Under the pieces are notes generated by a model, which made no database searches, had not been told where the DNA came from, and was given only the letters and a program-made list of their open reading frames with translations. A program made the position numbers and the translations under genes. 64,000 nucleotides of DNA. Source: Capsulimonas corticalis. Its GTDB lineage: Bacteria > Armatimonadota > Armatimonadia > Armatimonadales > Capsulimonadaceae. Positions within the stretch are counted from its first letter, which is position 1. Every line of letters begins with the position of its first letter. The stretch covers positions 2,790,001 through 2,854,000 of the forward strand of contig NZ_AP025739.1 of the NCBI RefSeq assembly GCF_003574315.2. Reading direction: 5' to 3'. Positions 33,575-58,903 of this stretch are shown piece after piece.

Positions 33575-33742
33575 ATTACGGGGGGACTCGGACCCCGCAT
33601 TGAAATACGGGGCTGGGGGCGCTGCGCGCCGACCGTCCGTGCCGGACGGAGGAGTGGGTTTGTATACGTTTCTTATTCCTCCGTCCGGCACGGACGGTCG
33701 GTGGCGAAGCCACCCCTAGCCACCTATTTCAATGGGTGGTCC
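33569..33742. repeat. REP-like palindromic pair A3
   Basis: Two arms in head-to-head orientation with a spacer that is the reverse complement of the A1 spacer (both carry GAAACGTATACAA or its complement). It shares the CCCCGCATTGAAATACGGGG edge and the CCGTCCG hairpins. The second arm ends in a changed edge (CCACCTATTTCAATGGGTGG), in which both strands of the stem have co-varied. Confidence 0.85.
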
Positions 33743-35973: not shown

Positions 35974-36121
35974 TCCCCGTATTGAAATACGGGGCTGGGG
36001 GCGCTGCGCGCCGACCGTCCGTGCCGGACGGAAGAATTGGAAAGGGCAACGATTGATCTCTTCCGTCCGGCACGGACGGTCGGTGGCAAAGCCACCCCCA
36101 GCCCCGTAATTCATTGCGGGG
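35974..36121. repeat. REP-like palindromic pair A4 inside the lut operon
   Basis: Two head-to-head A arms lie between lutA and lutB, with the CCGTCCGTGCCGGACGG hairpin and the shared CCCCGTATTGAAATACGGGG edge. Such hairpins between genes can change message stability and the ratio of lutA to lutBC product. Confidence 0.83.
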
Positions 36122-51792: not shown

Positions 51793-53208
51793 TTACGCGC
51801 CGCCCGCTCGCTTCCATCGGGCGATCCAGGGGTGCGCGGCCACGATTTGCCGGGCCTTTTCCGGATCGACCATGTGGATAAAGGCGACGTATCCGGCGGC
51901 GTACGCCTGAGCGTTCTGGCCGAGGCGCTCGCTGACGGCGGGGAGACCGTCGCGTTCGCACTGGTGCAGCATCGCCCGGAACCGACGCAGATTTTCGCGG
52001 GACAGACGCGGCGCGCCGCCGTTGACCACGAGACCCGTCACCGTTTGGCGATGCTGGCCGCGCTGGACCGACGTCTTTTCTTCATTCACCGTCAAGCCCT
52101 CATCGGCAATGATGCGGCGTGTGAGATCGAGCAGCATGCCGACAGGCGCGTCGGGCTTGGCGTGCGAGAAGACCAAGTCGTCGGCGTAGCGGGTGTAGAC
52201 GAAGCCCATCGCCTCGGCGGCCCCGGTCAAGCGGGCGTCGAGCTTGCGGCACAGCAAGTTAGTGACGGCGGGCGAGGTGCACGCGCCCTGCGGCAGACTG
52301 CGGCCGCCGACCGCGACGAACCGGCGCGCCCCGTCCAGCGTCGCCGCCACGCGCGGCGCTTCCGTGGTTAGCAAAGCGAGCAGGGTGGCGACGCCGCCGT
52401 TATAACCGAGCGATCGGAACAGCGTCCGCACGCGCGGCAGGGTGATGGACGGGAAGAAGTCCTTCAGGTCGATTCGGATGACGACCGCCTGGCCCTGATG
52501 GCGCCGGGCGTTGTCCGCCACCGAGCGGGCAGGGCGGAACGCCATCGCGGCGTCGTGTACAGGGACCGGGGAAAGCACGGATTCCAGCACCCAGGACTGC
52601 GCCGTGCGCAGACGGCGCTTGGGCGAGGAGATCACGCGTACGCCGCCGCGCTTCTTGGGGATCGTGAAACGGGAGTAGTGATCGATCGTGGCCGCGCCCC
52701 GGTGATAGGTCAGCCAGGCGAGATCGGATTCCGAAATCCCGATCGCGGCGGCGACATCGGATGCCGTTGTAAGCGCCGGCAGTCCCAGCGTCGCCGTCTT
52801 CTCCGGATCGCCGCCTTTATAGACCAGCGCGTCGGAGACGCCGTGTCCGAGATAGGGAAGGGCGCGCTTGCGCCATTCGGTATCTTTGGCGTGCGATTCG
52901 ATCTTCTCCTGGGCGCGGCGCTCGCGACGGGCGATGCGTTCGGCGCGGACACGTTCGATCCGTTTGCGCCGAACTTCGGCGAGCAGCGCCGGGATATTGC
53001 CCGCCTCGGCGATCTTTGCTTCGACGCCGTTTAGCTCCGTGCGCAGCGCGATCATCTCATCGTAGTAGACACGCAGCTCTTTCTCCGCGCCCGCCGCCAG
53101 CTCCGCGACCTCGGGGCTGGGCGGCCAGAAGCCGAGCCGGACCATCTCTTCCCGGACGAACGCGGACTTGCCGATCGCCGCTAGCTGTTTTCGCTGTTCC
53201 GAATTCAT
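51793..53208 (-). CDS. Retron reverse transcriptase
   Basis: A 471-residue reverse transcriptase. Catalytic aspartates are in IDLKDFF (Asp247) and YADD (Asp343-Asp344). Two retron hallmarks are present: an NAxxH motif (Asn233-His237, DNARRHQGQ) and VTG (390-392). The first ~110 residues are an Arg/Glu-rich coiled-coil-like extension. There is no maturase X domain, endonuclease or DGR signature, so group II intron and diversity-generating types are excluded. The ATG at 53208 overlaps the stop of the WH-SWIM-BRCT gene by 4 bp. The RT would prime from an ncRNA and make msDNA. It is the last gene of the operon ARM, WH-SWIM-BRCT, RT. Confidence 0.9.
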
Positions 53209-55208
53209 TGCGCGCGATCCTCCAACATGGCTTGAAACTGCTGCTCCGTCAGGACGGGTACGCCGAGATCGCGCGCCTTTGTCAATTTCGATCCGGCCTT
53301 GTCTCCGGCGACCAGATACGTCGTCGTGCGGCTGACGCTGCCCGACGCCTTGCCGCCGCCCTGCGCCACGAGCGCCTCGGCCTGCTCGCGCGTGAACAGC
53401 GTCAATGCTCCCGTGAAGACGAAGTTCTGTCCTTTGAACCGGTCCGGGCGCAGCGCGGCCCCGCCTCCGCTTCCGCCGCTCTCCGTGGCGGCCGCGCCGG
53501 CGCCGACGCTTTGCTGGGACGCCAGCACCGTCGCCGCAAGAATGTGCGCGCACGGTCCCTTGCGCAGCTTCTCCCGCCGGTGCCACGAGCAGTTGCACTG
53601 GACGAAGCGGGCGCGCCCATCGGCGTCCAGATCCAGCACCACATGGAACTTGCGCTCGCGCTTCTCCTCGCCGCCGCGCACCTGGGCGCGATAACGCGTC
53701 GTTTGTTCGCCTTGTTCGGGGACGCCGAACGTTTCTTCTTCGTCCTCCTCGCCGGCCTTCAGCCATTTGACGCCGCCGGTCGCCACCAATCGGCGAGCGA
53801 GGTTGAGGCGCTGATCGCTTTCGTCCTCCTCGGGCGCGGGGAAGGGGAGGAGCTGCCGCCAGCGGTAGACGCCGCCCGCCAGGTCGTACATCGCGCGCCC
53901 TTCGCGGGTGAGCTTTTGCAGCGCGGTCGTCGCGGCCTCGCGCGACATATCCGTGCTCGCCGCCAGCTCCTCGGGCGTCAGCTTGAGCCGTGTTTCCAAT
54001 GTCTGGGCCGCCTGCGCGATGTCGCCGTCGGAGACGGAGCCGGTGGAGGCAAGCAGATCGAAGCGCGCCGCGCGCGACCAGTCGTTTTGCGTCCACCCCG
54101 ACAGTCCCAGGTCGAAGCGGTGATCTTTCAGGAAAACGGTCCAGTAGGACGGCATGCCCGTTCCCAGCAACCGCGCCTGGACTTTCTCCGCATGCGGCAT
54201 CAATGATTCCAGCACGAAGAGGCGGCGACGGCCCCAGATGCGGATATCGCCCGAGTAATCTCCGGAGAAGACCTGCTCGGATTCCAATACTTCAATATTC
54301 CAGGGTTCAATAACAATCTTCGGTTTCTCGCCAGGCGCGAGCACGAAGCGCAGGGAGCGCGGGCCTTTGTCCTCGCGGCGGCTGCGCAGGGCGGCGAGCA
54401 CTTCGGCGACGGTGGCGGCGCTGAGCGTGACGTCGACGCCCGAGAAGGCCGCCGCCGACTGCACCTGAAGAAATCCGCGCACCCAGGTCGGCGGCAGATC
54501 GATCTTCTTCTCCATATGCTCGCCCGCGCCCGTCGCCACCGTCACGCCCTCGCCGGCGATCTGGATAAAGGCGGGGCGGTAGTCGCGCACGCGGCGGATC
54601 TCATCGGCCAGCGCGCGGCTGTAATCGACATTCGTCGTGCCGAAGACCGTGGCGCCGAACACGTCCAATTTGTCCATCGGCACGGTCACGCGGCCATAGC
54701 TCGACTCATCGATGGAAAAAACTTCAAAGACAACGCAGTCGGGGTGGACGCTGACCACGGGGTCGAGGATCATCCAGGCGTCTTTGTCGTTGTCCCAGAG
54801 CCATTTGTAATACTTGGCGCGCGACGCCATAAAGTCCGCCGAGTTCAGTTGCTTTTCCAGCGGGTAAGACAGCTTGCGCAGGTCGGTAAGGCGCGTCTTC
54901 AGGGTTTCACGCTTTTCCGTTAGGCCCGGAAGCGCGCGCATCCGTCCTGCCATCTCGACCGACATTTCTTCTAAATAACGCTGCTGCACCCATTCTTGAT
55001 ACGCCGCGTGATCCTTGGGCTTGACTCGATGATCGCCGGAGACGACCGCGTAGAGCGCGAGCATCAGGCGCGCGTAGGCGAGGCTGTCGCGCACCATGGC
55101 GTTGAGCGCCACTTTGGGACGGGACAGCTCCGCCGAAACGTCCAGCCGCAGCCCTTCTGGACTCATGGACGCGCTGCTGGGGCGCGCGTAGCTTTGGGTG
55201 ACTTCCAT
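53205..55208 (-). CDS. WH-SWIM-BRCT protein, retron-associated
   Basis: A 667-residue accessory protein. The N-terminal ~390 residues show no known domain to me. A winged-helix-like region follows (about 395-455, [24 protein letters not shown]), then a SWIM zinc finger with the CxCxnCxH ligands Cys538, Cys540, Cys553 and His555. After a Gly/Ala linker comes a LigA-type BRCT domain (about 588-665, [25 protein letters not shown] and VPVLTEQQF). WH-SWIM proteins are known retron partners; the BRCT fusion is unusual and suggests binding to nicked or phosphorylated DNA structures. The start has GGAGGA upstream, 5 bp after the ARM stop. Confidence 0.85.
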
Positions 55209-55213
55209 GGCGC

Positions 55214-58200
55214 CTATCCTCCCGCTGGTCCGTCCAGCGTAAATCCGTCAATCGTTTCGCCGGCAAGAGCGCGCTTGGCAAGCTCCGCAAACGCCCACTC
55301 GGAATCGCGCGCGGCCCGGCCGCGCGCCAGCGCCAGCAGCGTCGGCGCATCCACGGTCGGCGCCGCGCTCTGCCGCGTTTTGACCTGTTCCTTGGCGCGG
55401 CGTCCGCGATGACGGGCGCGCAGCACCGTCTGATCGAACAAGACGGCTTCCGGGGAGGCGTCGTCCGCGCCGGTGAGCAGCGCGGCGACGAACGCCTGCA
55501 TGTCCGTGGCGTCGTGCTCGAACAGCGCGCGCAAGATTTCCGTCATCGGCAGCGACTTCTGATGTTCGAGCACGAACTCGCGCCCGATTTCCCGCACGGA
55601 GGATTTGGGGCTGTCGCAGAGCGCCAGGGCGTAATTGCGCTCCTGCCGGTCGCCTGGGATAACTGAGTCGAAGTATGTCTTTCCGACGACAACGCTTTGC
55701 GGGACTTCGGATTCCAGCAAGCGCAGCGCGAATGGCGTCTCCATGCCGAGGGCGGAAACGCGCGCGAGGCCCCACTGCCGAACTTCGGGAAGAACATGCG
55801 TGGCGGCTTGCAGCAAGAGCGCCGAATCACGCGCGAAGAGCGCCTCATGACCGCGCGCCCAGCGCTCCAATAAGAAGCCGAACGCCGGCTCTCGGATATT
55901 TAAGAACGAGGAGTCATCGGAAGAGATCAATGTGTGCGCCACATCGGCGTCGAGCAGCAGGCGGCGCTCCAGGCGATCGTCGGCGGCGCTCGCGATAGCC
56001 CCCTCGGCCGCACGCCAGAGCTCCTCCAGGCCAATGCCTTCCTGGAGATTGCGCAGCCAGCCGCCGCGCAGCGTTTCCCATTGCGCGTCCGATGCGGCGG
56101 CGATCAGCGTGAGCGTCACCGTGGCGGGCATCGTCTGCGTCATGCGCGCGAAGGTGGACGACGTCAGCAGGTCGACCAGGAACGGCCGCTCCGCCAGGCG
56201 CTCGGCGACGGCGTCTGGCCCAAAGCCCGCCCGCTCCAGCAAGGACAGCGCGGCGGCGGAGCTCATGGCGGTTCTGAGAACTGCGTTCGGCTCCGTGCTG
56301 GCGAGGAGACTCGTCCAGATGGGCTGCAAGACGCCAAGGCCGGTCGCGCTCGCCGCCAGCAAGCGCCATCCGGCCATCCGGACGGCTTCGTTTTCATGCA
56401 TCACCAGGCAGCGCGCCGCAGGCGCGCTGACGCTTTTGCCCGCAATCGCCGCTTCCAGGGCCTGTGTGACAGCTTCCTGCTGAGCCGCATCGGCGCCCGA
56501 CAGAGTGAGCGCCCAGGAGGGCGCATCGCTGGCGTCCGCCGCGCGCGCGGCGGCGACCACCATCTCCGTCAGGGGGCTTCGGCGGGCGGCGAGGAATGCG
56601 CCCGCCGCATCCAGCAGCCGGAGCTGACCGGCGGTATCGGCGAAGAGGGTCGCCAGCAGCATCGCTCCGCCGACGGAGCGGCGCGCCATGACGTCCTGTG
56701 TGAGCTGCGCGACGATCTGGGCGAGCATGCGCCGCGCGAACGCCACGCGCCAGGCGCCGTCGCCGGGATTGACCCTCAGGCCGTCTTCAATCGTCCGCCG
56801 CAGGCGAACGCCCGCCCGCAGATAGGCGTCGGCGGCGATCGATGGATCCATGGCCGACCGGGCGGCGATTCGCGCGGCGACCTCCCGCAGCGCGAACCGC
56901 GCCAGCAGCGGCGACGGGCTCGTCAGAAGGCTTGTCAGCATCGGTGTGGAGAGAGGCGGGGGCGGTGTGTTTGTATCGCGCAGGATCTTCCACGCGGCTT
57001 CATGCGTTTGCCAGGGCAGCGCGGGATTTTGCAGCAGCGACGCCGCGAGATCCGGGCGCCGATTCCAGGCTTCCGGCGCGCGCTCCTCGCGCGTGCGCAG
57101 CCGGAGACGCGTTTTCCCGAGCACATAGGCGCCGCGCCCATGGCGTGTCTGGCGGTACCGGTCCGACTGGCCGAACAGGATATCGATCGTGGCCCACTGG
57201 CGCCGCAGGTCAAGCTCCGCTGACCCTGTGGACGAGAGAACGTCGTGCGCCAGCCGCACATAACGGTCCGGGTCGCGTTTGGCGAGCCCGCGCAGCAGAC
57301 GCCGCGCGCGCCGTTTCATGTAAGCGAACGTTTCGGGGGTCGGAGGCCGGCCGATGGGCGTCGGATGGTCCGGGCGCGAAATGTCCAGAATGGAGACGCC
57401 CTGATAACTCACGACGTAGATTTTGTCGCCGCGCATTATGAATGATTGGGGATAAACGCCGGGCAGCGGGGAGCGCCCGATCACGCGCGGCGCGAGCAGA
57501 TCGGTGGCGTCGATCAGATACAAGCCACGTCCCTGCGAATACGCCAGGACGCGATTCCCGTCCACGGCGATATGGTCCGGCGCGAACCCCAGGTTAAGAA
57601 AGCCGAGCTTACGCGGGCGGCGCGGATCCGCCGCATCCACGATTTGCAGCCCTGCGTCTCCCCGCTGCCCCTCCGGGGCGATCGTAGCGTAAACCAGCAG
57701 TCCCGCTGTCACCGCTTTGACGACCGGGCCCAGGGTGATCGATCCGACAATGGAGGGCTTCGCGGGATTGAAGGCGTCGACAAAGCGCAAGCCGCCGTCC
57801 TTCGGCAGGGAGCTCCAAGTGAAGCCGAGCTTGCCGACGACGACGCAGGTTACGCCGTCTCCCATCGTCAGAGTGCTTCCGCCAGGGATATCGATCTTGC
57901 CGCCGGGGACTGGCTGATCCGGATTCTGAAGATCATAAATCTGAAGCGTCGCGTCCTTGCCGCCGGCGTTGGGGACAAAATACCCTAGCCGAAAACGATC
58001 GCCGGCGACCAGGCCGTTGGGCAAGAGGGAGATGACGCCGCGCAGACGCGGCTCAGTTGGGTCCGAGATGTCATACAGGGAAACGCCCGGGCGTTGCTGT
58101 CCGAAGTCTTGGGCGCACAACAAATCTCCGGCGAAGAAATAAAACTGCGTCTGCCCGGTCGTTTCAAACTTCGCCAGATTCGCCGGTCGCAACGGGTCGG

Positions 58201-58555
58201 CGTCGCTCAGGGCGAAGACGCCGACGCGCGCCGCCTGCCGCATGGTGCGCCGGGCGGCGATGAGAGTATCTCCATGGATGACGATCTGCTGAAGATTGTT
58301 GGCCCCTTCGAGCTCCATGACGACCGGGGCCGAGGGCGCGGCTTGCAGCGGAACGCCATCGAGCCGCGCGATCAGCGCGGCGAGCAGCTCCATATCAGCG
58401 CCGGAGTCGGCTTCCTGCTGCTTGTAGAGCGCCTTGAAGCGCGCCCATTCTCCGTAACCCAGCTGGGATCTTCGGATGAAATCGATGAGGATATCCCGTG
58501 AGACATCGCTGGAGGAAGAGTTGGGGGAAGTCGGCTCCCCGGCGGGCGTGGACAT
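55214..58555 (-). CDS. LVIVD beta-propeller/ARM-HEAT repeat protein, retron-associated
   Basis: An approximately 1113-residue protein. After a helical N-terminus (about 20-75), residues ~85-420 carry LVIVD-type beta-propeller repeats (for example [30 protein letters not shown] and [16 protein letters not shown]). The remaining ~680 residues are alpha-helical repeats resembling armadillo/HEAT arrays, broken by Ala-rich linkers. It has no signal peptide. It is the first gene of the retron operon and corresponds to the ARM component. The ATG at 58555 has GGAGG 8 bases upstream; a TTG at 58561 is not needed. It is a likely scaffold or effector for recognition by the other two proteins. Confidence 0.82.
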
Positions 58556-58630: not shown

Positions 58631-58861
58631 TTTCGGGAGCGACGGCTACTTGACACGGAGGACCGGCGCCGTTCACTGTAGGCCCGGCGACGGGGTAGTG
58701 CACCCCTCTGTTGGTGGGCCACGTCCGACTCAGCGCCGGCAGAGGGGTGCACTACCCCGTCGCCGGGCTGAGTAGAAACGGTGACCGGTGAAGTGAAGCC
58801 ATCTTCACGGCAGCCGCGGCGAAACGCCGCAGACGAATTGCTAACCACACCGCTCCCGAAA
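58631..58861 (-). ncRNA. Candidate retron msr-msd RNA
   Basis: Bounded by an 11-nt inverted repeat: a1 (58861-58851, TTTCGGGAGCG) and a2 (58641-58631, CGCTCCCGAAA). A TTAGCA motif follows a1 closely; its G (58841) is the candidate branching guanosine. Two short hairpins follow, with UUU (58830-58816) and AUGG (58808-58793) loops. Next comes a long hairpin (58789-58662) whose inner 28-bp stem is perfect (58682-58709 with 58741-58768) around a 31-nt loop. Total length of 231 nt suits a retron ncRNA. The promoter start lies ~7 nt before a1, and the ARM gene begins 75 nt after a2. Confidence 0.8.
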
Positions 58862-58874
58862 CGACAATGACGAC

Positions 58875-58903
58875 AGTATATCTGCTTGGCGTGCGTCTGT
58901 CAA
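58875..58903 (-). promoter_or_regulatory. Consensus promoter of the retron operon
   Basis: On the minus strand, TTGACA (58898-58903) and TATACT (58875-58880) are separated by exactly 17 bp. Transcription would start near 58868, a few bases before a1. The stretch 58904-59092 further upstream holds only a GC-rich hairpin. Confidence 0.82.

Follow-up and report, generated by a model that had tools for sequence, protein, structure and literature searches.

Retron RNAs serve a bacterial immune system as the templates from which a DNA hairpin is copied. They comprise an msr with one to three hairpins and an msd with a long hairpin of about 10-50 bp, flanked by complementary ends, a1 and a2, of 8-30 nt; the retron types are said to have been defined in Mestre et al. 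2020. In the systems described so far, TAGC is the commonest priming context, the reverse transcriptase (RT) carries NAXXH (region X), YxDD and VTG (region Y) motifs, and mismatches or wobbles are generally present in the msd stem; ORFs between the msr-msd and the RT are already known in other retrons (PMC6868368). A limited literature search found no paper on type XIII retrons, nor on any retron that has a SWIM domain, a clamp fold or an array of msr-msd copies.

The locus described here lies in a 64,000-nucleotide stretch of the Capsulimonas corticalis genome, here called the window. Its operon is a type XIII retron with a propeller-HEAT protein, a SWIM protein and an RT bearing NAXXH, YADD and VTG motifs, encoded in this order downstream of the RNA and on the same (minus) strand. 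The 471-aa RT (51793-53208) matches the PADLOC profile RT_XIII with an E-value of 1.4e-149; this profile tops the 67 PADLOC profile matches to the protein, with 497 bits against 315 for the runner-up, and the RT motifs are found at NARRH 233, YADD 341 and VTG 390. The 667-aa SWIM protein (53205-55208) matches SWIM_XIII at 2.2e-168. The first protein, of 1113 aa (55214-58555), is predicted to combine a beta-propeller with a HEAT-like alpha-solenoid and is a distant relative of the PADLOC families WGR_XIII (1.6e-26) and HEAT-ARM_XIII (4.4e-20). Both matches are partial, the best stretch of the former covering profile positions 309-643 of 973; the N-terminal WGR part remains unmatched, and the predicted structure has the beta-propeller there instead. 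A structure search with the HEAT model returned only generic propeller-solenoid coats and scaffolds, which are little informative. The first two genes are separated by a 5-bp gap, and the last two overlap by 4 bp (ATGA). Because the SWIM stop overlaps the RT start there is no space for an RNA beside the RT, and an RNA adjoining the RT, which was looked for, is ruled out. The earlier note on this DNA held that two effector genes intervene between RNA and RT. The propeller-HEAT and SWIM genes do occupy that position, but an effector role has not been shown, and no catalytic toxin domain was recognised.

We consider it highly probable (about 0.92) that the RNA at 58631-58861 is the msr-msd of this type XIII retron, read from the operon head, a judgement made without RNA-seq or msDNA data. 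All of its elements are encoded on the minus strand. The inverted repeats a1, TTTCGGGAGCG (58851-58861), and a2, CGCTCCCGAAA (58631-58641), are exactly complementary over the 11 nt that the earlier note had given them, and flank pairing of this length was reached in only 2 of 400 dinucleotide shuffles. A plausible branching G had been proposed just after a1 in TTAGCA. The predicted priming (branch) G, at 58841, indeed stands in a TAGC context, in GTTAGCA within GGTTAGCAA, and GTTAGC is kept in near relatives. Both of the short msr hairpins that had been claimed are present and show covariation. Hairpin 1 (58832-58814; 8 bp with a UUU loop) is paired in 97.5% of cells across 10 relatives, with both-side changes in 3 pairs, and hairpin 2 (58808-58793; 6 bp) is paired in 75% of cells in 10 relatives, with both-side changes in 2 pairs and weaker support in the distant rows of the alignment. 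The msd hairpin (58682-58768) has a 29-nt loop and a stem in which 58768-58740 pairs with 58710-58682; it is perfect, as previously described, over 29 bp, one more than the 28 bp given. No other perfect inverted repeat in the window is as long as this stem; shuffled windows reach 10-13 bp. At its base runs a conserved strand, GCCTACAGTG...CGCCGGTCC (58660-58683), which is near-invariant across five close relatives. A folding energy of -152.5 kcal/mol (z -12.2) was computed for the whole RNA, and none of 200 shuffles was as low.

Upstream of a1 stands a sigma-70 type promoter, TTGACA-17-TATACT (58875-58903, minus strand), with a consensus match of 11/12. As it ends at 58875, the transcription start is predicted about 7 nt upstream of a1, just where it had been placed before. 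The RNA thus lies between the promoter and the first gene, 75 nt upstream of the start codon, and the distance from a2 to the RT start (53208) measures 5.42 kb, in agreement with the 5.4 kb reported. No family, and no retron family, was matched in Rfam at gathering thresholds. Relaxed Rfam matches were microRNA models and one weak sRNA match, drawn by the hairpin.

The same RNA is found upstream of the homologous first gene in L017 (Capsulimonas sp.), L018, L100 and L101, and a scan of all relatives added further operon-head RNAs in L024, L026 (Prochlorococcus), L027 (two copies), L028, L029 (Aureivirga) and L098. Two more genomes, G016 and G018, also fit head placement, but their contigs are cut off soon after the operon begins or within the hairpin. 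The promoter upstream of a1 recurs in L017, L018, G016, G018 and five of the six copies in G010. A covariance model of the msr, R1, recovers the head-position RNAs with E-values as low as 1e-23 (L024 gives only a weak match, at 22.8 bits) and has one match in the window's own genome; it misses or scarcely detects distant members, and absence by R1 is weak evidence. The earlier note had proposed covariance modelling of homologous upstream regions, with loss of a1/a2 pairing in homologous operons as a refutation. The msr-msd reading withstands both: compensatory changes are seen in a1/a2, in the msr hairpins and in the msd stem, and a1/a2 pairing is kept despite changed sequence in L017, L018, L100 and L101. 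Across ten sequences there are 11 double-changed cells against 3.1 in shuffles (0 of 500 as high), more than in any of six slid versions, and pairing falls from 88% to 31-59% when partners are slid by 1-3 columns.

A tree built from 75 RTs places the window in a clade of 19 rows (SH-aLRT 100), and in this clade the RNA stands at the operon head in 12 of the 12 rows where it could be placed. One of these, L097, is counted as head since its contig begins inside the hairpin just upstream of the first gene. Members of the other clade whose RNA was placed have it between SWIM and RT or immediately upstream of the RT, the exception being L046 (Helarchaeota), with three RNA copies downstream of the RT. 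At minimum two changes of position are required on the tree, which is a quick one with several long branches and unsure deep joins. The sister-clade loci also have WGR and SWIM genes, the chief difference being the place of the RNA. Head placement is therefore a clade-wide variant and not a new kind of layout, because other retrons, too, have accessory ORFs that separate msr-msd from RT. In the window's clade the RNA physically goes with the HEAT gene and not with the RT; therefore the RT must be capable of finding the RNA in trans. In the head-class HEAT protein of the window, the predicted beta-propeller occupies the place of the N-terminal WGR region of the sister-clade proteins. Hairpins near the RT in L060 and L023 are probably not msd.

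RNA and RT need not lie together and can be unlinked. In G323 and G324 (Microscillaceae and Microscilla), four and three tandem RNAs, respectively, lie directly upstream of a HEAT/WGR gene. Neither SWIM nor RT was found within the 17-18 kb read of these contigs; they lie on other contigs with unrelated neighbours. In G325 SWIM and RT are together and the RNAs are elsewhere, and in G322 and G326 the parts are scattered in the same way. Binning errors are possible for MAGs with unlinked or orphan RNAs.

Split type XIII retrons, with RNA plus HEAT/WGR, SWIM and RT on separate contigs, were observed in Microscillaceae and relatives at L131 7080-11136, L132 6409-10365 and L019-L023. Tandem arrays at a single retron comprise four copies in L030 (8892-9729), three in L039 (706-1293), three in L046 (11396-11968), two in L049 (8793-9454) and two in L027 (2945-3409). 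The msr is similar within an array and every stem is distinct, and the copies mostly pair best with their own a1/a2, most clearly in L030. Six msr copies are dispersed over the genome G010 (L117-L122). At least four of them come with a full msd hairpin, and five are preceded by the conserved promoter; neither a type XIII RT nor SWIM was detected in this MAG, which is 80% complete.

The letters of the msd stem change fast, and its pairing is kept. Compared with L017, the window is 97% identical over the 75 nt upstream of the hairpin against 55% for the stem arm, where 13 of 29 pairs have changed on both sides and none is broken. A second pair of relatives, L100 and L101, is 97% identical before the hairpin and 56% in the stem, with both sides changed in 11 of 25 pairs. 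Stems without mismatch reach 44 bp (L024) and 53 bp (L097) in the head class; strict perfection is not universal, since sister-clade stems often have one mismatch. Some words recur: ACTA, AGTA, TAGTA and GTAC are above dinucleotide shuffles in the stems, with kinship only crudely thinned. Among 49 type XIII stems of differing sequence, GTAC is reused in 18, ACTA/TAGT in 23 and TAGTA in 14, and GATC occurs in none of the 49. At the start of L097 and the end of L123 (G018), the assembly appears broken inside a retron hairpin with a 53-bp perfect stem, and long msd palindromes may consequently be lost from short-read assemblies.

The layout of the SWIM protein, as far as it can be predicted, is a PCNA-like clamp fold (34-373), a winged helix, a SWIM zinc finger (CxC...CxH) and a BRCT domain. 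In the AlphaFold model, built with 16 sequences (mean pLDDT 70), residues 34-373 are predicted to form a two-domain PCNA-like chain. The best 50 Foldseek matches in the PDB are all sliding clamps of the PCNA or DnaN type, and VIA-align superposes 232/246 residues of the model region 34-373 and human PCNA with a Z of 18.8 and an rmsd of 2.7 Å. A PDB sequence search with the SWIM profile found no clamp, only weak and mostly winged-helix-like matches; the clamp is visible by fold alone because sequence profiles miss it. The BRCT domain (4.9e-12) is present in the Armatimonadota rows checked (window, L018), and two motifs of the protein, WGRRR/WGRKR and PRS(L/I/M), scarcely vary. The presumed inner helices of the clamp model are not strongly basic. 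Ring clamps such as PCNA encircle DNA. Here the evidence for the clamp fold is a predicted model, and likeness of fold is no proof of likeness of function; whether a ring forms is unknown.

In the mechanism that we propose, a strong promoter would start one message at the operon head, carrying the RNA and the propeller-HEAT, SWIM and RT genes; a single message is inferred because the gene junctions are so tight. The RT would bind the folded msr and prime from the 2'-OH of G58841, as suggested by the anatomy and by the retron RT motifs, and would copy the msd into msDNA with a 29-bp perfect duplex, whose production and ends are inferred. The SWIM protein, with its predicted PCNA fold, might then hold or encircle the duplex stem by shape and not by letters. 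By analogy with the studied retrons, of which Eco8, Ec86 and Ec83 have an effector held inactive by msDNA (PMC13158370), the RT-msDNA may keep HEAT/SWIM inactive for as long as no phage product disturbs the msDNA. This guarding step, and phage protection by the system, are inferred only.

That the SWIM clamp grips the perfect msDNA duplex by shape, blind to its sequence, is an inference without binding data, and we hold it tentatively, with more doubt than conviction. A shape-based grip would explain why the stem sequence is free while perfect pairing is kept. The recurring stem words, however, fit poorly with purely sequence-blind binding and are the main observation that the clamp idea leaves unexplained. 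The full proposal for type XIII retrons, in which a PCNA-like SWIM ring encircles or caps a long perfect RT-made msDNA duplex, the RNA forms a module independent of the RT, whether at the operon head, in tandem arrays or at unlinked loci, and one RT plus clamp can serve several msDNAs with fast-changing stems, must be considered unlikely as it stands. It is also possible, if no safer a guess than the grip itself, that the RNA is a true msr-msd and the clamp-like domain has some other role, the stem diverging by recombination between copies or by template-directed correction of the palindrome, with selection on pairing only or on recurring words that some protein of phage or host reads. Arrays and dispersed copies would supply the recombination donors, and the excess of GTAC, TAGTA and ACTA over shuffles would suit words that are read; the window's genome, however, has a single copy, and the word counts are uncorrected for relatedness.

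Both of these possibilities accept the RNA as a retron msr-msd. A structured leader placed between a promoter and the first gene, so shortly before its start codon, could also be a cis regulator (an attenuator, a riboswitch-like element or a processing hairpin) and no template for reverse transcription. We find this very improbable: the gene set is that of a retron, the anatomy matches an msr-msd point by point, a terminator-like site is absent, and sister lineages have a like RNA after the RT or between SWIM and RT, orphan cassettes of it being known as well. The idea that the palindrome is a dispersed genomic repeat which landed by chance before the operon has practically nothing left to support it and was rejected, for although palindromic repeats of ~150 bp do form a large family in this genome (77 match rows, both strands counted), the retron palindrome is single-copy and matches only itself, so that the recurrence which the earlier note had named as a refutation is not found, and the whole RNA is kept with the operon in other genera. 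Two copies of the unrelated ~150-bp repeat lie in the window, at 33629-33701 and 36011-36083.

With this RNA read as a type XIII msr-msd, a little-studied kind of retron has its RNA in a place that a search confined to the sequence directly before the RT would not reach, and the tree shows RNA position to be a character of the clade. The perfect pairing of a fast-changing stem is tied to a testable partner, the clamp-fold protein, which opens the role of the msDNA to direct experiment, and several msDNA templates per RT in arrays would be a natural multi-template system. Known type XIII retrons (PADLOC) share the RT and SWIM families, the gene set and an msr-msd with a like UUU/UAU-loop hairpin; here, in contrast, the RNA is at the operon head, a beta-propeller replaces the N-terminal WGR part and a BRCT is added to SWIM. 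Eco3/Ec73, Sen2/St85 and Vch2/Vc81 likewise have one or more accessory genes between msr-msd and RT (PMC6868368), whereas the present locus has other effector types, two genes of 5.3 kb and a layout common to a clade that spans several phyla. Retron-Eco1 (Ec86; PMC8989520) likewise has a1/a2, is primed from the 2'-OH of a conserved G and groups the RNA, an accessory gene and the RT in one operon, but its effector is unrelated, and the msd stem here is without mismatch or wobble. The likeness to the PCNA and DnaN sliding clamps lies in the predicted two-domain clamp fold of SWIM 34-373, from which the SWIM protein differs by an identity of only ~10%, a long helical insertion and the added winged helix and SWIM finger.
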